Positions 9,622-24,269 are shown, numbered from the stretch's first letter. The stretch is 32,894 nt of DNA from Candidatus Omnitrophota bacterium (GCA_016929445.1 JAFGIU010000127.1:1-32894), one strand, 5' to 3'. Notes: generated by a model from the letters alone, not told the origin. Program-made: numbers and translations.

Positions 9622-9682
9622 CCAAATGAACGTACAGCTTAGCATTGGGACCTGAACGGATCAAGCGAGCAATCCGGAACCG

Positions 9683-9736
9683 GGGACGGACCTTTCCTAA
9701 CTTATTTGGCAGTAAGTGGTAATTGAGACCTGTCCC
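9683..9736 (-). repeat. Imperfect palindrome related to the GGGACAGGT element
   Basis: GGGAC (9683) to GTCCC (ending 9736) with a central ACTTA-N8-TAAGT hairpin. The right arm reads GAGACCTGTCCC, identical to the arm at 7476-7487; the left arm is diverged. It sits directly after the stop of the gene at 9742. Confidence 0.5.
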
Positions 9737-9741
9737 TGCTT

Positions 9742-10959
9742 TTAGGCCTCTAAAGGAAGGGTGGCACAGACGCGTGGGAGCCCCTGGGAACCCCATTCCA
9801 CCCAGGCGGAACCCCCGTGCGCCTCAAAAATCAAGCGGGCTGTGGTTAATGCCACACCGTAGCGCTTTTCCTGGGCACCGCATAAGGCCGCGGCCTGCTC
9901 ATCCGGGCAATCCTGCCAGAAAAGCCCCTCCGCATCCTGGCTCAGCCCCCCGGGAAACTGGAGGTGGTCAAAAGCCAAAAAAATCGATGAAAAGGAATAC
10001 GCGAGTTCCAGTCTGGGTAAAGGCAACAAAGGCAATGTCTTGTGGTCTGTGAAATAGGCCTCGTTCGCCGGGACAGGCTCCTCTTCCGCGTGCGTAACAA
10101 AACTCAGGAGATTGCGCAGTGCGCAGGCAATCAACCGCGCATCCCCCTGCACTGTCGGCAGATCCGGCGGAATGCACACCTCAAGTTCCAGGGACTTTTT
10201 AGAAACCATCTGCTGCCGCTCCTTGATTAGCTTTTGAACCAAGCGCTGCAAATCCACCGGCTCGGGACGCCCCCGCAAATTGCCCTCCATGCCCGCGCTG
10301 AGCACACTCAAGGTCTCCAGCTGGGAGCGGGCGCTGTGGTAGAGAGCGATTTGGTCCTGCTTGTGCCCCAAAGATTTCTGCACCTTCTCTATCTCAGAAG
10401 CCACAACTTTTGCGCCCTTGCCCAACAAATGCCCCCAAGCCAACTTCCTCGCGTCCATGGCTTGCCGGGCCTCCTGTGCAAGCACCACCCGCTCTTCCGC
10501 ATTCTGTTTTAGATCCTGGAGCTCCTCCACCTTCCAGTGCAAATCACGCACCATCTGCTGAAGGTTGGAATTCTCCATCACCAAGTCCCGCTGATGCAAG
10601 GTCTCGCGGATCACAGGGTAAAGATCCTGGAAAGACTCGGGTATTCCCATGACCCAACAGCGCCGGGTCTGCAACATCTTTTCCACTTGGGCGCCCTGTG
10701 TATTTTGTGTCAAGAACAAGCACACTGTATCCGGGCATTCCTCCAGCACCCGGGACACAATCTGAGACCCCGATAACCGGGGCATGGCTTCCGGAACCAC
10801 TGCCAGGTCCACAGGCTGGCACCGCATTTTCTGCAAGGTCTCAAACCCATCCGCACTCTCGATGATTTTGTAGTGTTCGCGAAGCAATGTCCTGGAAAGA
10901 AGGGTGGACTGGCCGACCTTAGGGCTGGCAATTAGGATAGTTGAGGTTTGACCACTCAT
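9742..10959 (-). CDS. Pseudo-receiver plus degenerate histidine-kinase-like protein
   Basis: This 405-residue protein joins a CheY-like N-terminal domain (about 5-120) to a coiled-coil region (about 125-230) and a HATPase-like C-terminal half. The receiver lacks its phosphoacceptor: the motif normally ending in Asp reads DLAVVP, with Pro56 in its place. There is no H-box histidine in the helical region. The ATPase half keeps GDARLIACALRNLL as a weak N-box but has no clear DxGxG, and ends GVALTTARLIFEAHGGSAWVEW, a decayed G2 box. It is likely a binding or scaffold protein rather than an active kinase. It is the last gene of the riboswitch-1 operon, 14 nt after the CheY-like gene. No direct family match is claimed. 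Confidence 0.75.
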   Translation of the reverse strand: MSGQTSTILIASPKVGQSTLLSRTLLREHYKIIESADGFETLQKMRCQPVDLAVVPEAMPRLSGSQIVSRVLEECPDTVCLFLTQNTQGAQVEKMLQTRRCWVMGIPESFQDLYPVIRETLHQRDLVMENSNLQQMVRDLHWKVEELQDLKQNAEERVVLAQEARQAMDARKLAWGHLLGKGAKVVASEIEKVQKSLGHKQDQIALYHSARSQLETLSVLSAGMEGNLRGRPEPVDLQRLVQKLIKERQQMVSKKSLELEVCIPPDLPTVQGDARLIACALRNLLSFVTHAEEEPVPANEAYFTDHKTLPLLPLPRLELAYSFSSIFLAFDHLQFPGGLSQDAEGLFWQDCPDEQAAALCGAQEKRYGVALTTARLIFEAHGGSAWVEWGSQGLPRVCATLPLEA

Positions 10960-10973
10960 GGATGAGTTCCAAA

Positions 10974-11354
10974 CTAGCTGCCCTGAGACCCATTGCTGAG
11001 GACTTCTTCAACACGATGGATTAGGCTGCTCATATCAAACGGCTTCACAAAATAATCAACAGCACCGATTCGTAGCATCTTCTCTGCAAGGTCTCGATTG
11101 TCCACCGTAGTGAATACGATTACAGGAATAATCTTGGTCACTTCGCCCTGTTTCAGATGGCGGCAAACTTCATCCCCTCTCATCCTGGGAAGAAGCATAT
11201 CCAGGAGAATGAGATCTGGTGAGACCTCGCCTGCTTTCTTGAGCCCCTCGTCTCCGTCGTAGGCAACCTCGACATCGTACCCTTCGTCTTCGAACAGGGT
11301 TCGCAGCAGAGTTACTATCAGCTCACTGTCATCTACGATCAATACCTTCTTCAT
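10974..11354 (-). CDS. CheY-like single-domain response regulator
   Basis: This 126-residue receiver domain has all the key residues: acidic Asp8/Asp9 (IVDDSE), phosphoacceptor Asp52 (LILLDMLLP), Thr82/83 (VFTTVD) and Lys104 (FVKPFD). No output domain is present, so it probably signals by protein contact or as a phosphorelay intermediate. The ATG at 11354 is preferred over GTG 11357 because AGGA lies 7 nt before it. It lies between an HPt gene and a degenerate receiver-kinase gene in an operon headed by a c-di-GMP riboswitch, so phosphotransfer with the HPt protein is a reasonable inference. Confidence 0.93.
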   Translation of the reverse strand: MKKVLIVDDSELIVTLLRTLFEDEGYDVEVAYDGDEGLKKAGEVSPDLILLDMLLPRMRGDEVCRHLKQGEVTKIIPVIVFTTVDNRDLAEKMLRIGAVDYFVKPFDMSSLIHRVEEVLSNGSQGS

Positions 11355-11371
11355 CACTTATTCCTGTCGTT

Positions 11372-11698
11372 TCATCCCAAATTCAATGCGTGGACCAACT
11401 GTTCAATCTCAATGGTGGACGCGCGCGCCTTCTCCAGAAGGGCGTCAACGTCTCCGGGACCATCTTTGGCGACTGGTTTGAGTTCCAGTTCCAGAGATTC
11501 GCACTTGTCGGCAATTTCCTTGGCCTCCAGCATCAAGGCCGTACCCTTAAGCGTGTGAAGCTCACCCAAGGCACTCTCAAGGGCTTCGGTATTTCCAAAG
11601 TCTTCGGCCAAAAGAGCCCAGTCCCGCTTAAGAGTTTCGAGGCGATTCATAGCCTCATTTTGAAACATCAGTTGAAGTTTGGCTTTATCCAATGGCAT
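11372..11698 (-). CDS. HPt domain phosphotransfer protein
   Basis: This 108-residue all-helical protein has the HPt signature ELHTLKGTALML, with the phosphorylatable histidine at residue 48. HPt proteins shuttle phosphoryl groups between receivers in multistep relays. The ATG at 11698 is chosen because GAGGA lies upstream at correct spacing; an in-frame GTG at 11710 lacks such a site. It lies 17 nt before the CheY-like gene and 20 nt after the putative RHH gene. The likely donor is a histidine kinase such as that encoded at 14791-16422, but partner choice is inference. Confidence 0.85.
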   Translation of the reverse strand: MPLDKAKLQLMFQNEAMNRLETLKRDWALLAEDFGNTEALESALGELHTLKGTALMLEAKEIADKCESLELELKPVAKDGPGDVDALLEKARASTIEIEQLVHALNLG

Positions 11699-11718
11699 GG
11701 TCTTCCTCACTGCAAACC

Positions 11719-12006
11719 TTACTTTGCGCCGCCTTCATCGCCTGCCGAACCTTCCCGAGCAATTTCCTCTGAAATTCTCAACTCCAACTCGCGAACCGAA
11801 CGCACACCATGGCCATTCACACCCATACGTCTCATCGCATTGACCATGGCCGCTATGATTTTGGTTCGGGACAGCTTGGTACCCGTGGAGAAGAGGGCAT
11901 CCTTCCCGATCTCATCCAGGAAGTCCACCTGCTCTCGGTCCAGCAAGGCAATCACACGGTGCGCCAGCTTGTTGGAATGATCGTCTTGCCGCGTGACCTC
12001 ACTCAT
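11719..12006 (-). CDS. Small putative ribbon-helix-helix-like protein under riboswitch control
   Basis: This 95-residue protein starts MSEVTRQDDHSNKLAHRVIALL. The core LDREQVDFLDEIGKDALFSTGTKLSRTKIIAAMVNAM (about 22-58) has the strand-helix-helix layout, with a T/S-rich turn before KLSRTKII, of small RHH DNA-binding or chemotaxis-accessory proteins. The ATG at 12006 is chosen: AAGGGAAGG lies just upstream, and codons further upstream run through the terminator and riboswitch. It is the first gene of the operon RHH-HPt-CheY-degenerate kinase. DNA binding is a guess from layout; it may instead be a protein-interaction partner of the phosphorelay. Confidence 0.7.
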   Translation of the reverse strand: MSEVTRQDDHSNKLAHRVIALLDREQVDFLDEIGKDALFSTGTKLSRTKIIAAMVNAMRRMGVNGHGVRSVRELELRISEEIAREGSAGDEGGAK

Positions 12007-12032
12007 AGAGACCTTCCCTTCGGTGTTCAAAC

Positions 12033-12070
12033 AAAAAACCCATGGCACCGATAACGGCAACGCATGGGTT
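12033..12070 (-). terminator. Riboswitch-1 expression-platform terminator
   Basis: Minus strand: AACCCATG (12063-12070) pairs with CATGGGTT (12037-12044), with an inner GCCG/CGGT stem, followed by a U tract (six U, 12033-12038). It begins directly after the c-di-GMP aptamer and ends about 27 nt before the ATG at 12006. Confidence 0.85.
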
Positions 12071-12160
12071 CTCCGACCTTTCGGTAGCCCAACCATCCGT
12101 CCTTACATGCGGCGGATTTGTGGCTTTGCGTCCCAACCTTACGGCTGGTTTGCCTTTATC
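12071..12160 (-). promoter_or_regulatory. Cyclic-di-GMP-I (GEMM-I) riboswitch aptamer 1
   Basis: Minus strand: GGCAAACC (12147-12154), a hairpin closed by a GUAA tetraloop, then GGGACGCAAAGCC, a second arm, and a closing GGTTGGGCTACCG segment. This order and spacing are the GEMM-I consensus, including the GNRA tetraloop that docks in the second helix. A terminator follows at once, so c-di-GMP should set read-through into the RHH-HPt-CheY operon. Whether ligand turns expression on or off cannot be read safely. Confidence 0.92.
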
Positions 12161-12190
12161 GATTGTCTAACTTACCAATTTTTCATTTCA

Positions 12191-12218
12191 AATATATCAC
12201 ACTTTGTTCAACAGTCAA
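12191..12218 (-). promoter_or_regulatory. Promoter of riboswitch-1 operon
   Basis: Minus strand: TTGACT (12213-12218), 16-nt spacer, TATATT (12191-12196). Transcription would begin about 25-30 nt upstream of the aptamer. It lies right after the 3' end of the Ser/Thr kinase gene. Confidence 0.75.
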
Positions 12219-12245
12219 TCGGCACAGCAGTTTAGAGTGTCTTTT

Positions 12246-13850
12246 TTACTCCTTTAAACTCACGGGGGACTCCACTTGGTGGAGGGTTTCCCCTCTTTGC
12301 AACACCACGATCTTTCCTTCGATGCGGGTGACCAAATACCCGTTGATCACCTCACCTTGCTGGACCTGACGCCCGTCAATGAGGGCCATGGGTTGTCCGT
12401 TCTTCCAGACCACCGCATCCACCTTGGGTAAAGCAGGCTCTTCCCGCAAAATCCCGGACGGGCGACGGCCGCTCCCTTCCAACCCGGGCACATTTGCCAG
12501 AATGGGGGCCCGGAATACCCACAAGACAGCCAAAGCCGCAAAAATCAATATCAGTTTCTTGCCCAGGCCGCTCTTCTTCTTGCCTCCGTATTCAGGAGGC
12601 AAACCTCTTCGACGGCCCTTTTTTATAGGCCCCTTCGGAGGCGTGGCAGGCAACGGACCCGGAGGAAACTCTTGGTTCGCCTCCGGCACCAATTCCTTGG
12701 GTAAGGGAGGCGCAGTAAATACATTCTGATCCGGCTCTGCCTCTTTGCTCGGCTCAAACTCACTCTGCCCCGAACGGCGCGCGGCAGTGGTGGCCTCTTT
12801 AATCTCTTCCTCCAAGCGCGCCAGCAAAGCTTTGGCCTCTGTTTCACCAGGGTGCAATTTGAGAGACAAGCGCACCTGTCTCTGTGCATCATGCAAACGC
12901 CCCTGCCGGTAAAAACGCACAGCCGCTTCCAAACACTGAGCCGCCTCTTTAGCAGGATCCTGGGCCGGAGAGTTTTCAACCGGCTGTCCCGCACTCTGCG
13001 GCACGTAGTTCACTGAAACCATCGGCCCGGGGGCGCTAATACTCTGTCCGGGAACTGCAGACAGACGTCTGATTTCCTCCATGAGAGTCGCCACGTCCTG
13101 ATACCGGTGATCTGCATTCTCTTCAAGACACTTCAGAATCACTCCGCGAAGCTTACCCTGGATTTGCTCCGGCCGGATAATACGCGGGCTTTCACCTGTG
13201 AGGGCTTCATAGAGTGTGGCCCCAAAGGAATAGATATCACTGCGAAAATCGACTTGTTCATCTCCCCGCCTCTGCTCCGGTGACATGTAATCCAAAGTCC
13301 CGGAGGAGGTCCCGCCAAAACCGCCGGCATCCTTGCCCGCAAAGGCAAAGCGCGCCAATCCAAAGTCCACAAGTTTGGGCATCCCGGAGGGATCCATCAG
13401 AATATTGCTGGGTTTGATATCCAAATGCACAATGCCGCGCCGGTGAGCGTAGTCCAGGGCCCGGCAAATATCGTGGGCATGCGAGAGAACCTCTTCAGGA
13501 TCCAAACCGCCTTGCTGTGTGATCTTCTGTTTGAGGGTCCCCCCCCGCACGTACTCCATGGCGATATAACACCCGTCGTCATCCGTATCCACGTCAAAGA
13601 CCTGCACAATACCCGGATGCTGCAGGCTCGCAATGGACTTGGCCTCGCGCAACATGACTTCCAAGGCCGCGGGATTGGAGGCAAAGGCCGGACGCAAACG
13701 CTTTAGAGCAATGACGCGGTCCAGGCGATTGTCCCGGGCGCGATACACAATGCCCATCCCTCCCTCAGAGATGCTCTCCAAAATGGAATAACGGTCTCCT
13801 GGATCCTTGCGATCCTGCGGTTCTTTCTGCGGATCTGAATTCTCGTCCAC
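12246..13850 (-). CDS. Membrane Ser/Thr protein kinase with TPR-like segment and GspC/PilP-like periplasmic tail
   Basis: This protein of about 534 residues has a Hanks-type kinase domain (about 20-265). It has a Gly loop EGGMGIVYRA, IALK lysine (about 50), catalytic HLDIKPSN (Leu replaces the HRD arginine), VDFG and SPE. Then come a TPR-like pair of helices (about 300-350), a Pro/Glu-rich linker, a basic stretch and one membrane helix (about 432-448). Outside the membrane, about residues 478-520 (AVVWKNGQPMALIDG, GYLVTRIEGKIVVLQRGE) look like the small beta domain of GspC/PilP-type secretion proteins. The start is GTG 13850, 5 nt after AAGGAG; a GTG at 13856 would touch that site. Last gene of the riboswitch-2 operon. 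The fold of the tail is an inference. Confidence 0.9.
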   Translation of the reverse strand: MDENSDPQKEPQDRKDPGDRYSILESISEGGMGIVYRARDNRLDRVIALKRLRPAFASNPAALEVMLREAKSIASLQHPGIVQVFDVDTDDDGCYIAMEYVRGGTLKQKITQQGGLDPEEVLSHAHDICRALDYAHRRGIVHLDIKPSNILMDPSGMPKLVDFGLARFAFAGKDAGGFGGTSSGTLDYMSPEQRRGDEQVDFRSDIYSFGATLYEALTGESPRIIRPEQIQGKLRGVILKCLEENADHRYQDVATLMEEIRRLSAVPGQSISAPGPMVSVNYVPQSAGQPVENSPAQDPAKEAAQCLEAAVRFYRQGRLHDAQRQVRLSLKLHPGETEAKALLARLEEEIKEATTAARRSGQSEFEPSKEAEPDQNVFTAPPLPKELVPEANQEFPPGPLPATPPKGPIKKGRRRGLPPEYGGKKKSGLGKKLILIFAALAVLWVFRAPILANVPGLEGSGRRPSGILREEPALPKVDAVVWKNGQPMALIDGRQVQQGEVINGYLVTRIEGKIVVLQRGETLHQVESPVSLKE

Positions 13851-13859
13851 ACTCACTCC

Positions 13860-14594
13860 TTAGCGACCCAAGCTCAAACGCTTGGCCAATACATCAGGTA
13901 ATCCTGCCTTAAGAATTTTTTCCTGTGTCTTCTGAACATTGTAGTTTACCCGCCGGAAATACAACTCCCCTATTTTGTCGTCAAAGAGAACCCAGCAGGC
14001 TTCATGCCTCCCATCCCGCGGCTGGCCTACGCTCCCCACATTCACGACAATCTTTTCGCCGGGAATCAGTTCCACGCGCCCTTCGGAAACAGACTCCCAC
14101 TTTTTTTCTTCGCGGCACACGCCCGGCAAGTGGGTGTGCCCGATAAACAGCATCGACGATTTCAATTTTCTCAAGCTGGGCTGGGCGCTGGAGGTATTCA
14201 TAATGTAATCCCAACGCTCGGGAATCTCCAGAGATGCATGGGCCAAAACGAAGTCCCCCATTTCCTTAACCAATGGCAAGGCAGCCAAATATTTCAAGGC
14301 CTCTTGGCCCAGATGCGCGCGCGCGTAATCCACCGCAGCAACTGCATAAGCATTGAAATATGTCACATCTGTCATCTCAACAACTGCATGATCATGATTG
14401 CCGGCCAGACACACGCCCCCAGAGTCCTCCACCGCTTTTCGCGTGAGCTCAAGGGCTTCAGCGGGCTGTGCTCCGTAGCCCACCACATCCCCCAGGCAGA
14501 GGATCTTGTCCGGTTTGAAACTCTGGACATCCTTGAGCGTCGCCTTTAAGGCCTCAAGATTGCTATGGATGTCGCTCATGATCGCGTACTTCAT
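13860..14594 (-). CDS. Calcineurin-like metallophosphoesterase (YfcE/MJ0936-like)
   Basis: This 244-residue phosphoesterase has the five metal-binding blocks in order: MSDIHSN (start), CLGDVVGYG, GNHDHAV, VLAHAS and FIGHTHLPG. The family includes phosphodiesterases with broad substrates and some acting on cyclic nucleotides or protein phosphate. The ATG at 14594 is chosen because AGAAGG precedes it by 5 nt and the protein then starts MKYAIMSDIHSN, as in homologues; upstream codons run into the 187-bp palindrome. It lies between a histidine kinase and a Ser/Thr kinase in one operon, so a role as phosphatase or second-messenger esterase is plausible but unproven. Its stop is 3 nt from the ribosome site of the kinase gene. 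Confidence 0.88.
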   Translation of the reverse strand: MKYAIMSDIHSNLEALKATLKDVQSFKPDKILCLGDVVGYGAQPAEALELTRKAVEDSGGVCLAGNHDHAVVEMTDVTYFNAYAVAAVDYARAHLGQEALKYLAALPLVKEMGDFVLAHASLEIPERWDYIMNTSSAQPSLRKLKSSMLFIGHTHLPGVCREEKKWESVSEGRVELIPGEKIVVNVGSVGQPRDGRHEACWVLFDDKIGELYFRRVNYNVQKTQEKILKAGLPDVLAKRLSLGR

Positions 14595-14607
14595 GAATAC
14601 CTTCTTC

Positions 14608-14794
14608 CTAGCCCGGATATTGCACGAGTCTCCGGCAAAAGACACCGGAAACGACCGGTACTGCTGCGTTGTGCTCCCTCGGCCGTCCTCACCGTATCAC
14701 ACCGGATACGCCTGCGGAGTCCTCGGTCGCACGTCTTGCATTGCCGGTCCTTTGCGTCCCTTTTGCTCGAACTCTCATGCAATATCCGGGCTAG
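14608..14794 (-). repeat. 187-bp palindromic element with perfect 17-bp inverted ends
   Basis: CTAGCCCGGATATTGCA (14608-14624) and its exact reverse complement (14778-14794) bound a 187-bp unit. Inside are further nested pairs: GCAAAAG with CTTTTGC, GACCGG with CCGGTC, and a central CGTATC-CGGTGT-GATACG hairpin. The whole unit can therefore fold into one long imperfect hairpin. It overlaps the TAG stop of the FHA histidine kinase gene and ends 14 nt before the phosphoesterase ATG. It could be a non-autonomous mobile element or a structured RNA; I could not assign it to a known family. Confidence 0.75.
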
Positions 14795-16422
14795 CCTCTG
14801 GGCAACCAGATTCTAAAGCGAGCGCCACCACTCTCCCCATTGGCTACCTCAACACACCCCGCATGCGACTCGATAAGATACCGGCAACTTGACAAGCCCA
14901 ATCCTGTCCTGAATCCCTTATCCTTGGTGGTGAAAAGCGGCTCAAACAGTCGCTGGATCTGGCTCTCCGGGATTCCCGGGCCCGAGTCTTCCACAAAGAC
15001 CTCCACGCCCCCTTCCGGAACATTTCGGGAAATCACCTTTACCGAGCCTCCGATAGGAATAGCCTCAACCGCGTTATCCAGAAGGTGTCCAAAGGCTTCC
15101 GCCAACCCCTGGGCATCTCCCTCAATCCGGTCCAGATCCTCTTGCAGACGGAGTTCGACCGAACCCTTCCTGGCCTCGAGCGGCCCCTGGATCTTTTCCA
15201 CACAGGCCTTCAGCACCTTGTTGAGGTCCACCAAGGCCGTTGAACCCAGGCCTTGGCGGGAAAACTTCAGGAGCTTGGTGGCAATACCCGAACACTGCTT
15301 GGCTTCGGATTCAATCATCTTGGCCAGACCGCGCACTTCCTCCTGGGTCCGGGGCCCTGCTTCTGTCTCGGAAAGTTCCCGGAGGAGCATTTGCGCAGCA
15401 CAAATAATGCTGCTGAGTGGATTGTTGATTTCATGGCCCACATTGTCGGCCAGCCGCCGCAAAGCAGCGAACTTTTCCGTCTCCAACACCTGTTCCCAGC
15501 GATGCTGGAATTCCCGGTCCAGCAAAGTCAGACGGCTGAAGAGATGAGATTTGGACAGGCTCACGGCAGACTGCTCTGCCAATCGCGCAAAAAGCCTGAG
15601 CTCCGTTTCCGAAAACCCGGCCCCATTGCCTCCGCGTTCCAAGTAAAGATAGGCAGCTGAGCGATTCCCGTGAGTCATCGGAGCCCATAGAGCCGTCAGG
15701 GAATCCGGAGTGCCTTGAGAATTTCCTCTGCAAGTCAACAGGGCCTCATTCCCTTTGAGCAGGGCCTCATTCCCTTTGAGCAGGGCCTGCGATTCCCCTC
15801 CGGGCAGCAAAAGTTGTAAAGGCCCGCCTTCAGGCTCCAAACCCCTGCCCGCGACACACAAGAACTCCTCCTCACCTTGATTCCAAACCAAGAGATAACC
15901 TTTGGCACAACCCAAGATTTCCACTGCTGCATCGAGAATTTCGTATCTCAAGCGCGCAGGGTCCTCCAATGAAAGGACATTCCGGTGGAACTTGACCAGG
16001 GCGGAGGAGTAATTCTCCGCGGACTCCGGGCTTTGAAAAAGCGCCTCCGAAGCCAGAACTTCAACTTGGTCTTCAAACACACACGGCGTAAAAGAAACCG
16101 GGACGCGCACCTTAGCCAAAGCATCCTCTTCATGGACTCGAATAAAAAGCAACTCCGTGCTGCCGACACGAATTTGGTCTCCAAAGCTCAGTTCATGAGT
16201 GCTGATGCGATCGCCGTTCACATAGGTCCCGTTTTTGGAATCCAGGTCGCAGAGGAGGAACTTGCCGTTGCGGAGGGCAATTTCGGCATGCCGCCGGCTC
16301 ACCAGGGGGTCGGGAACACAACAAGGCAGTTGGGGATCACGGCCCAGGACGACCGCAGCGGCCCCCCCCAGCGGAAAGGTCACCCCCCGATGTTCTCCTC
16401 CCTTGACCACCAATTTCGGCAT
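14791..16422 (-). CDS. FHA-GAF hybrid-sensor histidine kinase
   Basis: This 543-residue soluble kinase has an N-terminal FHA domain (about 1-95; GRDP 27-30, SRRHAE 42-47, NGTYVNG 64-70), which binds phosphothreonine. A GAF-like sensor region (about 140-295) follows, then a dimerisation helix with H-box NVGHEINNPLS (His330). The HATPase domain has N-box HLLDNAVEA (Asn450), DSGPGIP (479-485) and TGLGLSSCR (506-514). No membrane helix is seen. The FHA domain and the Ser/Thr kinase two genes downstream make a phospho-Thr-dependent link between the two signalling types likely. A 7-residue duplication (LLKGNEA twice, near 214-227) sits in the GAF part. First gene after riboswitch 2; AGGA lies before the ATG. 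Confidence 0.94.
   Translation of the reverse strand: MPKLVVKGGEHRGVTFPLGGAAAVVLGRDPQLPCCVPDPLVSRRHAEIALRNGKFLLCDLDSKNGTYVNGDRISTHELSFGDQIRVGSTELLFIRVHEEDALAKVRVPVSFTPCVFEDQVEVLASEALFQSPESAENYSSALVKFHRNVLSLEDPARLRYEILDAAVEILGCAKGYLLVWNQGEEEFLCVAGRGLEPEGGPLQLLLPGGESQALLKGNEALLKGNEALLTCRGNSQGTPDSLTALWAPMTHGNRSAAYLYLERGGNGAGFSETELRLFARLAEQSAVSLSKSHLFSRLTLLDREFQHRWEQVLETEKFAALRRLADNVGHEINNPLSSIICAAQMLLRELSETEAGPRTQEEVRGLAKMIESEAKQCSGIATKLLKFSRQGLGSTALVDLNKVLKACVEKIQGPLEARKGSVELRLQEDLDRIEGDAQGLAEAFGHLLDNAVEAIPIGGSVKVISRNVPEGGVEVFVEDSGPGIPESQIQRLFEPLFTTKDKGFRTGLGLSSCRYLIESHAGCVEVANGESGGARFRIWLPRG
15741..15788 (-). repeat. Perfect 21-bp tandem duplication inside the FHA kinase gene
   Basis: A 21-bp unit is repeated exactly (15741-15761 and 15762-15782), followed by six more bases of the unit. 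It keeps the frame and doubles a 7-residue LLKGNEA segment in the GAF region. The identity suggests a recent slippage event. Confidence 0.9.
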
Positions 16423-16458
16423 GGCTCGGTCCTAGTGGAGTCCGAGTGGCGGGAGCAC

Positions 16459-16493
16459 AAAAAGACCCTGCTGCCTCAGGAGCACACAGGGTC
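16459..16493 (-). terminator. Riboswitch-2 expression-platform terminator
   Basis: Minus strand: GACCCTG (16487-16493) pairs with CAGGGTC (16464-16470) over a 16-nt loop, followed by five U (16459-16463). It lies between the aptamer and the FHA kinase ATG. Confidence 0.87.
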
Positions 16494-16499
16494 ACCCCA

Positions 16500-16612
16500 A
16501 TCTCGCTTCGGCAGCCCAGCCATCCACTGTCGTCCCTAACCGCTTTATCTATAGGGACTTATGTGCATCTGTGACTTTGCGCCCCGCCCTTACGAACGGT
16601 TTGCCAGTTCGG
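16500..16612 (-). promoter_or_regulatory. Cyclic-di-GMP-I (GEMM-I) riboswitch aptamer 2
   Basis: Minus strand: GGCAAACC (16598-16605), a hairpin with GUAA tetraloop, GGGGCGCAAAGTC, a second arm with a perfect 7-bp GTCCCTA/TAGGGAC extension, then GGCTGGGCTGCCG. A TCGC/GCGA pair can close the base. The layout is the same as aptamer 1, but the loop and arm sequences differ. It is followed by a terminator and controls the operon FHA kinase, phosphoesterase and Ser/Thr kinase. Direction of control is not certain. Confidence 0.92.
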
Positions 16613-16653
16613 CGATTTTGAAAAACGCTAAATACTGCTATTTCTTACGGCAA

Positions 16654-16681
16654 AGGATAGCACGGATTGTCCCAATGTCAA
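16654..16681 (-). promoter_or_regulatory. Promoter of riboswitch-2 operon
   Basis: Minus strand: perfect -35 TTGACA (16676-16681), 16-nt spacer, -10 TATCCT (16654-16659). The start site near 16647 lies about 35 nt before the aptamer. The -35 is only 7 nt from the end of the TPR gene. Confidence 0.78.
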
Positions 16682-17971: not shown

Positions 17972-20641
17972 TCAATCCTGTTTAAGACCCAGCAGCTTGT
18001 AGACTTTGACGAACTGACTCTTTCCCTTGACCTGGACTGAGTCCAAATACTCGACTTCCACAAGATTTTCCACATCAGCCAGGGTAAATTCCGTAATGAT
18101 GATATGACAATCAAACCCGCGGGTCAGGGCCTCGACACGCGCACCCAGATTCACGGCATCTCCGATGACCGTGTAATCCATCAGACTCTTGGAGCCCATG
18201 TTGCCGACAATCATTTCGCCTGTGTTGATGCCTATGCCCATATCCAACACATGCCGGCCCGCTGCACTCCACTGGATTTGAAGTTCTTTGAGGCGCTCAA
18301 CCATCTGGAGGGCAGTCCGCACTGCAAGCTCCGCGTGATTCTTCACCTCTTCAACCGAAGGCGCGCCGAACACCGCCATGATTTCATCGCCCACATACTT
18401 GTCCAGCGTCCCGTTGTTCCTAAAAATGATCTGAGTCATCTCGTCCAAGTATTCATTCAGAAGCAACACGACTTCTTCCGGAGACATCTGTTCGGAAATC
18501 GTGGTAAATCCGCGCACATCACTAAAGAGAACTGTTAAGTTCTTACGCGCGCCGCCCAAGTTGAGTTTCGAGGGATCCGACAAGATCTCTTCCATAACAT
18601 TGCCGCTCACATAGTGGCCAAAGGCTTTTTTGATAAATCGCTTTTCCTTTTCTTCCGTCATAAAGGAATACGATGTCACTCCCACGAAGGTCAGCCCCAA
18701 GCCAATCAAAGGATTCAGGGCATCAATCCATAAGCCATGAGACTTAAAAATTAAGAGTGAGCTGAAGACCGAGGCCACACTCAGGGAGGTCACAAAACCC
18801 AAGCCCTGAAAGGCGGAAAGGCGCGGCAGAAGAAGCACTGCCAGCAAGACCCACAACGCTGCCCAAGCAAATTGCTCTTTGGGGCCGGCCTCGCCGAGAA
18901 AGCTCTCCGTCAGAATCGTATTGAGCAGATTGGCATGCGTGCCCACCACCGGGTAATTAGAGGCCAAAGGAATCGGTCCGTAGTCGTGAGTCCCCGGCGC
19001 AGTCAAACCCACAATGCAGATTTTGCCTTCCACTATCGGGCCCAGGCGTGTCCTCAATTGCCGCAACACGAGCCGGTCCTGAGCCAACTGTTCCTGAATT
19101 TGGCCGCTTCCTTCTTCCCTCAGAAGATTTTGATTGTGAGTCACATTCTGTTGCATCTCCCACAAGCGATACACAGCCGCACATGAAAGATGGGCAAAAC
19201 CCGGCCCCCAATCATCGGCCCAATTGATCATCAAACAACCCATGGAGTCGGTCGGGATAAACAAATCCCGCGGCTGGACCTCGTTAGGCAGACGGGCGGA
19301 AGGCAAAACAAAGCCCTCCCCCTTTGATGCCCGGACCCGCGTCCGGTCCACCGACAAGTAATCCATCAGAGCGCCCATGGCCAGCTGCGGCACAGCATAA
19401 CCTTCGTAATTGAGAAACAGAGGCACACGCCGGATAACACCGTCGGAATCAGGAACTGCGTTGAGGTAACCGCTTCCCGCGCAGACCTTGCTGAAGAGCA
19501 CCATCGGAGCATCCAGATCAATCGAGACATACGGACTGTCTACCGCCAACTCCCCCTGAATGCCGAAGCGCTTCAAAAATATTTGCTTCTTACGCACGGC
19601 CTCATAGACCACCCCCAAAGTATGGTCGGAGCTTGGATCGGTCATCATATAGTTGAAGAGCGATTCATCGGCATCCTGCAGAGTCCACATGATCTCGGTC
19701 ACTTCGGCATTGGGATTGGCTTCCAACAGAGGCCGGATTTTCTCGGTCAGGAGTTCGTGCCGCACCCATCCCAAATCCGAGCGCAGCTCTTCATCAGGTG
19801 TCTCTCCCAAATGATAGGCCAAGGCTTCCAAAGGAACGGAAAGATCGCGGATAAGAAAATTGCGAATCCGAAAGCGACGCGCAATGCGCTCCAATTCCTC
19901 TGTGTCAAACAGACGGGAATACGCCGGATAGGCCCCTGCCACAGCAAGGAGGCCCTCCTGATCCAGTGTGGGATCGTCAATCAAGGCCTTGGCCAGGTGG
20001 GCTTTGAGCGCCAGATAGGCCCTGTGGCGGGCGAGATCTTCCTCCGTATAAATAACCTGCATCCGGTTACCTAAATACACATTACCGGAGGAAGCCACGG
20101 CACGGGAAAGGATCGCATCATCATTGCGTACAGCCTCGTTTAACGTGCGCTGAACATCACTCTCAATCTGATCCAAAGCTGAAGAAATCTGCCCAAGGTA
20201 TGCAACGGACTCCTCAGGAGTCGCTGTCCCGCCGGAAACGAGTCCGGATGCCTGGGCAATGAAATCCTGGATTGCGGCTTTTCCCCGCTGAAACCCCACG
20301 CCCTCCTGCACGAAATCGCCATCCACGGTCAGCTGTTGCGGCTCGGTGAAGAGCACGTCAAAGAGGATCTGTTTTGCGCCCAGCTGGCCCAAAGTCTCGA
20401 TGATGCGCGCAAAAGTCTGCCTGGGCCAGGGCCAGCGTCCGAGAGTTTCAATGGCATGCTGGTCCATCTCCACAAAAAGAATTTCCGGAGCCTGGTGCTG
20501 CACACCCCGCTGCCGGAAGGCCCAATCAAAGGTTTTGAGTTGAAAGGAAGAGTAGAAATCCCCGCCAAAGAGGTTAAGAAGGAAAATGCTGACAAGGGCC
20601 ATAAGCCCTATAAGCAAAGCTGTGGTGTATTTTCTTAGCAC
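17972..20641 (-). CDS. CHASE2-domain class III adenylate cyclase
   Basis: This membrane sensor-cyclase has about 889 residues. One N-terminal helix leads into a large extracytoplasmic CHASE2 domain (FDWAFRQRG and FVEMDQHAIETLGRWPWPR near its start, YVSIDLDAPMVLFSKV later). Two or three helices follow (about 600-660), then a cyclase domain over the last 190 residues. Catalytic features are metal Asp in LFSDVRGF, LDKYVGDEIMAVFG (Lys for adenine, second metal Asp), DYTVIGDAVNLGARVE (Asp/Thr adenine pair, Asn and Arg for the transition state). All are present, so cAMP synthesis is expected. GTG 20641 overlaps the stop of the GAF kinase gene by 7 nt; an upstream ATG would overlap that gene by 76 nt. 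Operon with the GAF kinase. Confidence 0.92.
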   Translation of the reverse strand: MLRKYTTALLIGLMALVSIFLLNLFGGDFYSSFQLKTFDWAFRQRGVQHQAPEILFVEMDQHAIETLGRWPWPRQTFARIIETLGQLGAKQILFDVLFTEPQQLTVDGDFVQEGVGFQRGKAAIQDFIAQASGLVSGGTATPEESVAYLGQISSALDQIESDVQRTLNEAVRNDDAILSRAVASSGNVYLGNRMQVIYTEEDLARHRAYLALKAHLAKALIDDPTLDQEGLLAVAGAYPAYSRLFDTEELERIARRFRIRNFLIRDLSVPLEALAYHLGETPDEELRSDLGWVRHELLTEKIRPLLEANPNAEVTEIMWTLQDADESLFNYMMTDPSSDHTLGVVYEAVRKKQIFLKRFGIQGELAVDSPYVSIDLDAPMVLFSKVCAGSGYLNAVPDSDGVIRRVPLFLNYEGYAVPQLAMGALMDYLSVDRTRVRASKGEGFVLPSARLPNEVQPRDLFIPTDSMGCLMINWADDWGPGFAHLSCAAVYRLWEMQQNVTHNQNLLREEGSGQIQEQLAQDRLVLRQLRTRLGPIVEGKICIVGLTAPGTHDYGPIPLASNYPVVGTHANLLNTILTESFLGEAGPKEQFAWAALWVLLAVLLLPRLSAFQGLGFVTSLSVASVFSSLLIFKSHGLWIDALNPLIGLGLTFVGVTSYSFMTEEKEKRFIKKAFGHYVSGNVMEEILSDPSKLNLGGARKNLTVLFSDVRGFTTISEQMSPEEVVLLLNEYLDEMTQIIFRNNGTLDKYVGDEIMAVFGAPSVEEVKNHAELAVRTALQMVERLKELQIQWSAAGRHVLDMGIGINTGEMIVGNMGSKSLMDYTVIGDAVNLGARVEALTRGFDCHIIITEFTLADVENLVEVEYLDSVQVKGKSQFVKVYKLLGLKQD

Positions 20642-21954
20642 AATGGAAGCTCTAAAATGAACTTCGTCCAGGTGGGTTCGCCTTCTTCCTGAGTTTGGCT
20701 CTCCACCCAAATTTCGCCCCCGTGATCATTCACAAGCTTCTTGGAAATAGCCAGGCCCAGGCCCGTCCCGTGGGACTTCCCCTTGGTCACAAAGGGCTGG
20801 AACAACGTTTGCCTTAGATCCACCGGCACACCGGGCCCGCTATCCTGGATCTCAATACGCAGTTTGTCTCCGTTCTGGCGCGAACGCACTGTCAAAGTGC
20901 CGCCGTCAATCATGATATCCGCTGCATTCCCGCAAAGATTGAGGATAACCCTGCGCAGCCGGTCCGGATCCATGCGCGCCTCCCCTGAGTATCCCACTTC
21001 GGTCACCACCTCAATGCCCCGGCGCTCAACCGTGCGTTTCATAAAGGAAAGCGTCGACTCCAGAAACCCGCCAACCGCCACAGCGGAAATATTGAGTTTG
21101 TACTCGCCGCGGGAGTAGTCCAGAATATCCCGGGTCATGTCCACCAGGTGATCAATCTCCTGAATAATGTCATGCGAAAACTGCTTGACCTCTTCTCCCT
21201 CCAGCATTCCCTTCTCCAAAAGCTGGCAGAAGCTCTTGACCGAGGCCATCGGGTTTTTCAAATCATGCACAATCGTATTGGCCACCTGGCCCACAGCCGA
21301 GAGCCGCTCCGCCTGCACCAGCTTGGCCTCGGCAGCCAGCAGCTCCTTGTGAGTCTTAATCAGATCCGCATGCTTGTCCGCCAAATCCTTGTAGATACGG
21401 GCGTTTTCCAACGCAATGCCCGCCTGACCGGCGACAATCTCGAGCATTTTGCGGTCTTCGATTGTGAAACAGGCCCCGCGTCTCTTATTAATGACTTCCA
21501 AGACTCCCAGTAGCTTGCCTTGGTGCTCCACTGGAATAGCAAGAATGCTGCGCGTTCGAAACCCGGTTTGCTTGTCGGCTTTTTGATGGAAGCGTTTGTC
21601 CTTGGACACATCTTTGACGTTGAGCGGCTTCCGGGTCTGCCCCACAGTACCCGCAATCCCCTGGCCCAGCTTCACCACGATCTCCTGCGCGGCTTTGCCC
21701 TTCTCCCCCAAGGCCACGGTAAAATGCAGGGTGCGGGTCTTGGCCCTGTACAGGGCAATAGAGCTCGCCTCTGCCCCCACAGTCTCACTGGCCTCTTTCA
21801 TGATCAGGCGCAATAATTTTTCGTAGTCATGCATGGATCCAACAAGTTGGCTAACGGTCAGGAGGGTGTGGATCTGCTTGCGCAGATGCGCGGATTCCCC
21901 GGGTGTTGAAGTTTTCCGGGCGGGCTTCTTGGTAATCTTTTTGCGGGCAGCCAT
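20635..21954 (-). CDS. GAF-domain histidine kinase
   Basis: This 439-residue soluble kinase has a Lys/Arg-rich N-terminus (1-15), a GAF domain (about 40-185; GQGIAGTVGQTRKPLNVKDV, LAIPVEHQGKLLGVLEVINK) and a coiled coil. The H-box is TIVHDLKNPMASVKSF (His230). The HATPase domain has NLCGNAADIM (Asn343), DSGPGVP (371-377) and GTGLGLAISKKL (396-407). The ATG at 21954 has an AGGAG site 8 nt upstream; the reading frame stays open further upstream across the promoter, but that part is not coding-like. It is transcribed with the CHASE2 cyclase and divergently from the receiver/PilB operon. The receiver across the gap (22112-22495) is a natural partner. Confidence 0.93.
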   Translation of the reverse strand: MAARKKITKKPARKTSTPGESAHLRKQIHTLLTVSQLVGSMHDYEKLLRLIMKEASETVGAEASSIALYRAKTRTLHFTVALGEKGKAAQEIVVKLGQGIAGTVGQTRKPLNVKDVSKDKRFHQKADKQTGFRTRSILAIPVEHQGKLLGVLEVINKRRGACFTIEDRKMLEIVAGQAGIALENARIYKDLADKHADLIKTHKELLAAEAKLVQAERLSAVGQVANTIVHDLKNPMASVKSFCQLLEKGMLEGEEVKQFSHDIIQEIDHLVDMTRDILDYSRGEYKLNISAVAVGGFLESTLSFMKRTVERRGIEVVTEVGYSGEARMDPDRLRRVILNLCGNAADIMIDGGTLTVRSRQNGDKLRIEIQDSGPGVPVDLRQTLFQPFVTKGKSHGTGLGLAISKKLVNDHGGEIWVESQTQEEGEPTWTKFILELPLC

Positions 21955-22006: not shown

Positions 22007-22111
22007 CCAGTTCTCGCATAACCCCTTCCCCTGATACAGGGATATGATAAACTATACCCGAAAGTACTCATTTCTGCATTGTCATCCTTTTGGGAACACC
22101 GGGGGCGGTCT

Positions 22112-22495
22112 GTGGCTACTATCCTTATTATTGATGACGACGAAATCCTGCATAAGTTCCTGAGACAGATCCTGGGCAAAGAAGGGCATCAAGTGGAAGA
22201 GGCCTTTGACGGCATGACGGGCCTGGAAATGGCCCGCTCCTGCAAGCCTGATCTTATTCTTCTCGACCTGGAACTCCCGCGCCTCAACGGCCACAAGGTC
22301 TGTCAAATTCTCAAGGCAGACAAAAACTACCAAAGCATCCCCATTATCATGATGACAGCCTCTCTTCAGCACGAGGACAAGCAATGGGCTGAAAAAACGG
22401 GCGCCAATCACTACTTCACAAAACCCTTTGATCTGGAACAGCTCACCGGAACCATCAAAGAGCTCCTAGCCCAAGCACAAAACGCAGAGGGCTGA
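22112..22495 (+). CDS. Single-domain response regulator
   Basis: This 127-residue CheY-like receiver starts VATILIIDDDEILHKFL (GTG start). It has acidic Asp8-10, phosphoacceptor Asp52 (LILLDLELPRLNG), MMTAS for the Thr, and FTKPFD with the Lys. No output domain is present. The frame continues upstream to a TTG at 22079, but GTG 22112 is preferred because the domain then begins at the usual place and GGGGGCGG precedes it. It ends 22 nt before the GspE/PilB gene and probably shares its transcript, so it may control that motor. Confidence 0.92.
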   Translation: MATILIIDDDEILHKFLRQILGKEGHQVEEAFDGMTGLEMARSCKPDLILLDLELPRLNGHKVCQILKADKNYQSIPIIMMTASLQHEDKQWAEKTGANHYFTKPFDLEQLTGTIKELLAQAQNAEG

Positions 22496-22517
22496 TCCTC
22501 AATATAGGGAGAGCAAT

Positions 22518-24269
22518 ATGAGTGATCAAGACGCACCCCAGGCAAACAAAAGCGCTCAGGAGGTCTTGTCCCCTGAGGATATTGAAAGCCATCCCCTGAT
22601 CCAAGCCCTGCTGAACAAAAACCTGATCAACGGAGGCCAGGTCGCGGACCTCGTGGAAGCCCACCAATCGACCCACGATCCGCTGGACAAACTCCTTGTA
22701 GACAAACACATCATCAGCGAGGAACAGCTCGGCCCCTTCCTGGCCACACAGATGGATATCCCCTTTATCGATCTGAAGACATTCATCATCGAACCCGAAG
22801 TGCTGGCTACCTTGCCGGAGGCCCTGGCGCGCAAATACAATCTTGTCCCGCTTTTCCGAATCAAGGATAGCTTGACTTTGGCCATGGTGGATCCTCTGAA
22901 CGTGCCGGCCATTGAGGAAGTGCAAAAAGTCACGGGTTGTGTGGTGGACACCATGCTCGCCAACCGTTCCTCCCTCCTGCAGTGCCTGGACCAGCACTAC
23001 GGCACAGGCGACTCCATGGAGGAGCTGGTGGAAATCACGCAGGAACTGGATGACGGCGAAAACGAGGAGGGTTTCGACGCTTCGGACGTCCAGAAGATGA
23101 CCGATGATCCGCCGCTTATCCGGCTGGTGAACCTGCTGCTTTTGCAGGCCATTGACCAAAAGGCCAGCGATATCCATATCGAGCCCACAGAAAAGAATGT
23201 GCGCGTTCGCTTCCGCTTGGACGGCATCCTGCACGAGGCCAAGACACTGCCCAAAAATATTCAGTTCCCGGTGACCGCGCGTCTAAAGATCATGTCCGAA
23301 ATGGATACCATCGAGCGGCGCAAGCCCCAGGACGGCCGTATTTCGATTCGCGTGCGCGACCGGGGAGTGGACCTTCGTGTCTCGACCTTTCCCACGGGCT
23401 TGGGCGAAAAGATCGTTATGCGTATTTTGGATAAGAGCGGGGGAGTGCCCAAACTCACGGACCTGGGCTTTCAGGAAGATGTGCTTGAGACCTTCAATCA
23501 GTTGATCAAGCGCCCCAACGGCATCATCTTGGTGACCGGCCCTACGGGCAGCGGTAAAACTTCGACTCTTTACTCCGCGCTGGACGCCATCAATACCGTG
23601 GAAATCAATATCATGACCTTGGAGGATCCGGTGGAAGCCGCAATCCCCGGGCTGAACCAAGGGCAAGTCAATCCTAAGGTGGGTATGACTTTTTCGGCCG
23701 GGCTCCGGTCCATTCTGCGTCAAGATCCCAATGTGGTGCTCGTGGGGGAGATTCGCGATGACGAAACCGCGGAAATCGCGATCCGGGCCTCCTTGACCGG
23801 CCACTTGGTCTTCAGCACCTTGCACACCAACGATGCGCCTTCGGCCATCACCCGCCTGATTGATATTGGTGTAAAGCCTTATCTGGTAAGCTCTTCCGTA
23901 CTCGGAATCCTGGCTCAGCGTCTGGTTAGAAAGGTCTGCGTCAAGTGCGCCAAGAAAGGCCCCCCTGACGAAAAGCTCTGCCGCCTTCTGGGCATTGACC
24001 CCAAGAAAGAATTCTCCGGAGAGGTGCCGATTGCCAAAGGCTGCGAAGAATGCCACCAAACCGGGTATAAGGGACGCATGGGTCTGATGGAACTTTTTGT
24101 TCCGGACGAAAAGTCCCGGCGGGCCATCGTAGATGGGGTGGACGACACACGCCTCAAGGCAGACGCTGTCGAGCGCCTTGAGATGAAGACTCTCAAGATG
24201 GACGGAATTGAAAAGGTGAGACTGGGCTTCACAACCCTGAGTGAAGTCTTAACCGCAACCTCAGATTAA
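22518..24269 (+). CDS. GspE/PilB-type secretion or pilus assembly ATPase
   Basis: This 583-residue hexameric motor ATPase is of the type II secretion/type IV pilus family. An N-terminal MshEN/T2SSE_N-like region (about 25-160) is followed by an acidic linker. The ATPase core has Walker A GPTGSGKTS (341-349), an Asp box near EINIMTLEDPVE (362-373), Walker B VVLVGEIRDDE (406-416) and a His box VFSTLHTND (431-439). A zinc tetra-cysteine site has Cys474, Cys477, Cys509 and Cys512. Some N-terminal domains of this class bind c-di-GMP, but the conserved RLG-type motif is not clear here. AGGGAGAG precedes the ATG. No other pilus or secretion gene is in the window, so GspE and PilB cannot be separated. 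Its stop overlaps the convergent gene by 4 bp. Confidence 0.94.
   Translation: MSDQDAPQANKSAQEVLSPEDIESHPLIQALLNKNLINGGQVADLVEAHQSTHDPLDKLLVDKHIISEEQLGPFLATQMDIPFIDLKTFIIEPEVLATLPEALARKYNLVPLFRIKDSLTLAMVDPLNVPAIEEVQKVTGCVVDTMLANRSSLLQCLDQHYGTGDSMEELVEITQELDDGENEEGFDASDVQKMTDDPPLIRLVNLLLLQAIDQKASDIHIEPTEKNVRVRFRLDGILHEAKTLPKNIQFPVTARLKIMSEMDTIERRKPQDGRISIRVRDRGVDLRVSTFPTGLGEKIVMRILDKSGGVPKLTDLGFQEDVLETFNQLIKRPNGIILVTGPTGSGKTSTLYSALDAINTVEINIMTLEDPVEAAIPGLNQGQVNPKVGMTFSAGLRSILRQDPNVVLVGEIRDDETAEIAIRASLTGHLVFSTLHTNDAPSAITRLIDIGVKPYLVSSSVLGILAQRLVRKVCVKCAKKGPPDEKLCRLLGIDPKKEFSGEVPIAKGCEECHQTGYKGRMGLMELFVPDEKSRRAIVDGVDDTRLKADAVERLEMKTLKMDGIEKVRLGFTTLSEVLTATSD

Follow-up and report, generated by a model that had tools for sequence, protein, structure and literature searches.

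How do two neighbouring groups of signalling genes, each preceded by a riboswitch for cyclic di-GMP (c-di-GMP), relate to one another: as one circuit or as two units that share a ligand? This question is raised by a 32,894-nucleotide (nt) stretch of DNA from Candidatus Omnitrophota bacterium (GCA_016929445.1, JAFGIU010000127.1:1-32894; hereafter the window), which is contig C127 of a metagenome-type assembly of 2.43 Mb in 137 contigs, 97% complete. A preliminary description had proposed that two riboswitches here control every gene from 16,422 down to 9,742 and so form a single c-di-GMP-controlled circuit. We find instead that the genes probably, though with considerable room for doubt, make up two separate units, with one c-di-GMP-I riboswitch and terminator gating each, that both tune pilus-related surface behaviour; the second is led by a gene of a c-di-GMP-linked protein family of 94 amino acids (94-aa family).

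Rfam covariance matches on the minus strand bore out the two riboswitches (RS1 and RS2), which are similarly oriented and separated by 4.4 kb, and Pfam domains supported the gene list given for both operons, from which the 94-aa gene had been missing. Each aptamer has its own sigma70-like promoter and intrinsic terminator (Table 1) and we thus recognize two transcription units (TU1 and TU2). In its total of sites a promoter scan did not exceed shuffled sequence; it is therefore the placement of these two sites, not their count, that carries the argument. TU1 comprises RS1, an FHA-GAF-histidine kinase, a phosphoesterase and a serine/threonine (Ser/Thr) kinase; TU2 comprises RS2, the 94-aa gene, HPt, CheY and a degenerate receiver-kinase, all tightly spaced. 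With a promoter-like site per unit, a 188-bp repeat within TU1 and genes that are not conserved together, the earlier observation is partly confirmed: it holds for aptamers and genes, but not for control of every gene by the two switches. Both aptamers retain G20, A47 and C92 as read from the covariance alignments, the bases that contact c-di-GMP in Vc2 numbering; their contexts in the two aptamers are TGGC/AGGC, GCGCAAAG/GACGCAAAG and GCC/ACC. Assignment of RS2 to the RF03167 'GGC' variant was rejected: its RF01051 score differs by half a bit at most, and at position 47, where the variant is named for its G, RS2 has an A. We therefore class RS2 with the ordinary c-di-GMP-I aptamers.

The first gene of TU2 belongs to a family that recurs with such aptamers. 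Of the 384 class genomes that served as the set for all protein relatives unless stated otherwise, 105 encode relatives of the 94-aa protein (28-66% identity), and a profile search of 285 genomes of the phylum recovered the family in 67, two of them outside the class; our closest comparison genomes share the class of the window genome and no nearer rank. Among 80 loci that were fetched and scanned with Rfam, 65 carry a same-strand c-di-GMP-I aptamer at -150 to +800 nt upstream of the annotated start, as do 12 of 18 further homolog loci counted by hand (77 of 98 in total). About six aptamers lie elsewhere in the same 532 kb, giving a density near the 94-aa gene that is about 140 times higher (the P value for this comparison takes no account of relatedness). 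A terminator hairpin with a U-run stands between aptamer and homolog in 38 of the 41 loci tested. The arrangement of RS2 and the 94-aa gene is clearly not due to chance. At two homolog loci, a pair of c-di-GMP-I aptamers lies close together on one strand (L298, 5799-6320; L303, 1061-2150).

The family carries the signature HRVIAxLxREEVDFLDKLGKDALFSTGxKLSRTxII, and neither Pfam, NCBIfam and PDB sequences nor the plasmids, viral contigs and named loci searched held a relative. A PilZ domain (PF07238) scores above the cut-off at the C terminus of 7 homologs from 6 genomes and is absent from the window protein. An AlphaFold (AF2) model of the latter has helices at 23-40, 46-60 and 70-87 (mean predicted local distance difference test score 86.8); a possible strand at 16-22 is coil in this monomer model. 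A short strand with two helices after it would be the order of a ribbon-helix-helix (RHH) protein, and we regard this fold as a lead. A profile comparison with a small RHH set gave E 0.057 and a probability of 1%; two of the four sequences in the set were consensus-like, so this comparison counts for little. By inference, the protein may have a DNA-binding or adaptor role. We tentatively suggest, as a possibility well short of an even chance, that the family is an unrecognised c-di-GMP effector, perhaps an RHH regulator or pilus adaptor, with its dose set by a c-di-GMP-I riboswitch, and that in some lineages the fused PilZ domain would sense c-di-GMP too. Literature searches joining c-di-GMP riboswitches with RHH proteins or with this phylum returned nothing relevant.

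Predicted pairings suggest how RS2 could gate TU2. The terminator loop GUUGCCGUUAUCG pairs with the aptamer segment CGAUAAAGGCAAAC (duplex -20.2 kcal/mol), and folds of the nascent transcript prefer the antiterminator at 123-141 nt, after which the full terminator wins. In the absence of ligand, the loop would pair with the aptamer strand and transcription would run on into TU2; with c-di-GMP, the aptamer would be held, the terminator would form and TU2 would be off. Because a ligand-held aptamer would block the antiterminator pairing, RS2 is predicted, with fair confidence, to be an OFF switch. The alternative pairing in RS1 is weaker (-16.7) and runs through the 3' aptamer strand, pointing only weakly to an OFF switch there. 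Other loci of the 94-aa family agree with an OFF switch: 12 of 55 terminators contain TTTGCC, complementary to the invariant GGCAAA of the aptamer core, against 3.1 in shuffles (maximum 8). Pairing between terminator and own aptamer averages -13.4 kcal/mol against -12.0 when permuted (standard deviation 0.35), a value reached by at most 1 of 2000 permutations.

The genes behind the 94-aa homologs suggest a tie of the family to type IV pili. PilT/PilB-type ATPases lie 3' of the homolog in about 25 of the 80 loci, usually followed by a PilC-like gene. In one genome (G023), a HAMP-GAF-GGDEF diguanylate cyclase separates the 94-aa gene from pilT; in another (G009), a GDSL hydrolase, two receivers, CheW, a methyl-accepting chemotaxis protein (MCP) and CheA follow, and small exported proteins do so at other loci. 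Since the downstream genes vary by locus, and are here HPt, CheY and a dead kinase, TU2 is best seen as a local version of a recurrent arrangement. The downstream genes would then be lineage-specific modules, most often motor and platform genes of type IV pili. In one family of the class (L233, L234, L243, L265, L268 and L270), the 94-aa gene stands 5' of genes resembling those for DnaG primase and the main sigma factor.

The last protein of TU2 had been called catalytically dead, and alignment agrees. In the receiver of this protein (405 aa), the phospho-acceptor Asp is gone, along with the acidic pair and the Lys; the kinase part is without the H-box His, the N-box Asn and the G1 box and so does not retain the set of H, N, G1 and G2 boxes seen in active histidine kinases. 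No full-length ortholog was found in 79 genomes, which gave receiver-level matches only. The FHA kinase, HPt and CheY keep their catalytic or phosphorylation motifs. Beyond the 3' end of TU2, a sequence resembling a repetitive extragenic palindrome, GGGACAGGTCT...AGGTCCGTCCCC, lies at 9680-9740; a clear terminator follows at 9620-9602, ahead of a short basic gene.

A pilus setting for TU1 is suggested by a single genome of the class, G001, the only one in which the FHA kinase has a full-length counterpart (27% identity across all domains); a scan of genome contigs with this kinase gave domain-level matches only. There, the end of a Ser/Thr kinase gene adjoins the start of the FHA-GAF kinase gene, within a pilus operon that comprises PilB, PilC-like and prepilin-like genes, the kinase pair, PilM, PilN, a T2SSB/T2SSC-like protein, CheY, a receiver-kinase, a second CheY and PilZ; no HPt gene lies beside the pair. 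The C terminus of the window Ser/Thr kinase matches the T2SSB-like protein of G001 (31% over 58 residues, E 4e-8, in a single BLASTP comparison). On two instances, these observations support both a link from Ser/Thr kinase to FHA kinase and a pilus setting of TU1, and signalling from the first kinase to the second is plausible. The kinase pair of TU1, Ser/Thr and FHA-GAF, has full-length relatives only in this type IV pilus operon. Around TU1, a CHASE2 adenylate/guanylate cyclase gene lies 5' on the same strand (17972-20710), which adds a source of a second nucleotide signal in the vicinity; 6 kb away on the plus strand, a CheY gene is followed by one for a PilB/GspE ATPase with an MshEN domain (22079-24269).

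Table 1 Features of the two transcription units in the window (positions counted from its first nucleotide)
Feature	Position	Strand	Basis or remark
Sigma70-like promoter, TU1 (TTGACA-16-TATCCT)	16654..16681	-	Consensus match only
RS1, c-di-GMP-I aptamer	16507..16615	-	RF01051 47.4 bits (cut-off 35)
RS1 intrinsic terminator (GACCCTG...CAGGGTC-TTTTT)	16463..16493	-	Sequence; ensemble P(terminator) 0.96; weaker form also listed
FHA-GAF-HisKA-HATPase histidine kinase	14791..16422	-	Pfam; catalytic motifs intact by alignment
Dispersed palindromic repeat, resembling a miniature inverted-repeat transposable element (MITE)	14608..14794	.	Between kinase and phosphoesterase
Calcineurin-like metallophosphoesterase	13860..14594	-	Pfam; widespread gene
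Ser/Thr protein kinase with TPR-like part, membrane segment and T2SSB-like C-terminal domain	12246..13856	-	Pfam, BLASTP
Sigma70-like promoter, TU2 (TTGACT-16-TATATT)	12191..12218	-	Consensus match only
RS2, c-di-GMP-I aptamer	12079..12163	-	RF03167 68.6 bits, RF01051 68.1 bits
RS2 intrinsic terminator	12036..12070	-	Loop GTTGCCGTTATCG complementary to aptamer 5' strand CGATAAAGGCAAAC
94-aa protein, first TU2 gene	11719..12003	-	Riboswitch-linked family, RHH-like by pattern
HPt protein	11372..11710	-	Pfam PF01627 3e-10
CheY-like receiver, intact	10974..11357	-	Pfam, alignment
Degenerate receiver and degenerate kinase, 405 aa	9742..10959	-	Pfam, alignment

Taken together, both units would adjust pilus-related surface behaviour to the level of c-di-GMP, and a pilus function is the most likely inference for them. 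Several observations weigh against this reading. More than half of the loci have non-pilus genes 3' of the 94-aa homolog; TU1 has one relative only among the 384 genomes, and 19 kb around the kinase pair of G001 contain no riboswitch above the cut-off. In the RS1 ensemble the terminator is preferred in all states, whether the aptamer is included or not, and the shuffle and permutation tests of terminator pairing correct only partly for the relatedness of loci. A Foldseek search with the 94-aa model gave no solved-structure match below E 1 (NikR came third, E 2.7), the monomer model being a poor query for an intertwined dimer.

It is unlikely, if still worth weighing, that ordinary signalling genes simply lie side by side in an aptamer-rich class and that the two units are functionally untied. 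The window genome (2.4 Mb) contains 8 c-di-GMP-I aptamers and at least one was found in 259 of 292 class genomes scanned, many of which have several (up to 14 among the matches listed per genome), so that two in the window are not remarkable in themselves. In this genome, aptamers are also located ahead of genes for ATP synthase, a histidine kinase and exported proteins, and the synteny of TU1 and TU2 is not conserved. Such a chance neighbourhood is difficult to reconcile with the clearly non-random pairing of RS2 and the 94-aa gene; suggestive, too, is the presence of two of the 8 aptamers within 4.4 kb, both 5' of signalling genes. Elsewhere in the genome, one aptamer with a terminator stands directly 5' of apparent genes for subunits c and b of ATP synthase, which are unusual as a target (L004, G000:C92:3261-3365). 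The strongest aptamer of the genome precedes a HAMP histidine kinase gene (L001, G000:C106:18922-19010), and a GGDEF gene lies on that same contig at 20063-20527.

The preliminary description had joined both operons into one phosphorylation circuit under joint c-di-GMP control, leading from the Ser/Thr kinase through the FHA kinase and HPt to CheY, with the phosphoesterase as reset and the dead kinase as scaffold. The adjacency, shared orientation and two aptamers of the units speak for it, as do the motifs, intact in kinase, HPt and CheY and dead in the 405-aa protein, and the Ser/Thr kinase found beside the FHA kinase in G001 too. The relay itself fits poorly. Phosphorelays run in the order His-Asp-His-Asp, and a histidine kinase without a receiver is not known to donate phosphate to HPt. 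As it lacks a receiver, the FHA kinase would not be expected to signal through HPt to CheY; the sole intact receiver at the locus is CheY itself, the other one being degenerate, and no receiver to stand between kinase and HPt was found there, although an unlinked one could lie elsewhere. CheY would be the natural target of the FHA kinase, and phosphate would pass between HPt and either CheY or a receiver encoded elsewhere.

Nor does the phosphoesterase look like a dedicated reset. Its relatives occur in 180 class genomes, one copy each, and in the 29 loci inspected the gene lies between those for an acylphosphatase and a ligA-like protein (neighbours named from sequence starts). As it is never beside a Ser/Thr or FHA kinase in these loci, we rejected it as a protein phosphatase or kinase partner. 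TU1 is, moreover, split by the 188-bp repeat, which has 57-nt arms (fold z -9.8 against shuffles) and 24 matching places in its own genome at 69-97% identity, which come to about 14 distinct sites, several at contig ends. It is probably a mobile element of MITE-like type at which the assembly breaks, and the phosphoesterase and Ser/Thr kinase genes 3' of it may be affected in their expression; a structured regulatory RNA in this gap (14608-14794) was ruled out, since the sequence is this dispersed palindrome and matches nothing in Rfam. Relatives in up to 384 class genomes do not keep both riboswitches and both gene sets together, an outcome that the preliminary description had itself named as refuting its model, so the unified circuit is not supported and we consider it quite improbable. 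The ligand class shared by TU1 and TU2 stands; a conserved unit does not.

Two separate riboswitch-gated units, the reading that we prefer, can be set beside known systems. Type IV pilus chemosensory systems such as Pil-Chp couple CheY, HPt and PilZ modules to PilB/PilT motors. The CheW/MCP/CheA cluster behind the 94-aa gene in G009 resembles them, whereas the window has no CheA, CheW or MCP and the 94-aa family has no match among family models. EspA of Myxococcus xanthus carries an FHA domain, and EspA models match the kinase part of the window FHA kinase. Joint action with a Ser/Thr kinase, PktA5, has been proposed for it (PMC4320627). This cooperation with Ser/Thr kinases recalls TU1, but EspA is a hybrid with a receiver that acts through MrpC turnover, with no riboswitch and no HPt. 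In Clostridioides difficile, the two-component operon cmrRST is under a class II c-di-GMP riboswitch that acts as an ON switch, and the flgB riboswitch is an OFF switch (PMC8844915). The former shares with the window a two-component signalling operon 3' of a c-di-GMP riboswitch and differs in its class II aptamer, its ON behaviour and its invertible promoter; it encodes the regulators CmrR and CmrT and the sensor kinase CmrS, and has no FHA, HPt or 94-aa protein. Like our proposal for RS2, C. difficile c-di-GMP riboswitches, including flgB, tune surface motility genes by termination (PMC8844915, PMC6200980), but they belong to another phylum and other genes, with no 94-aa homolog reported. Each ingredient of the locus therefore finds a precedent in cmrRST, flgB or EspA. 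What we could not match to any described system is the 94-aa family, tied as it is to a riboswitch and in some homologs fused to PilZ.

The comparison thus corrects the earlier idea of a single phosphorylation circuit. The literature searched describes no targets for the c-di-GMP riboswitches of this class, and with riboswitch linkage in about four of five cases and its PilZ fusions, the 94-aa family offers a clear entry point to how the class uses c-di-GMP, probably for type IV pili. If the family is indeed a c-di-GMP effector, one signal would act on both the amount and the activity of the same protein, across a class with very few cultured members.

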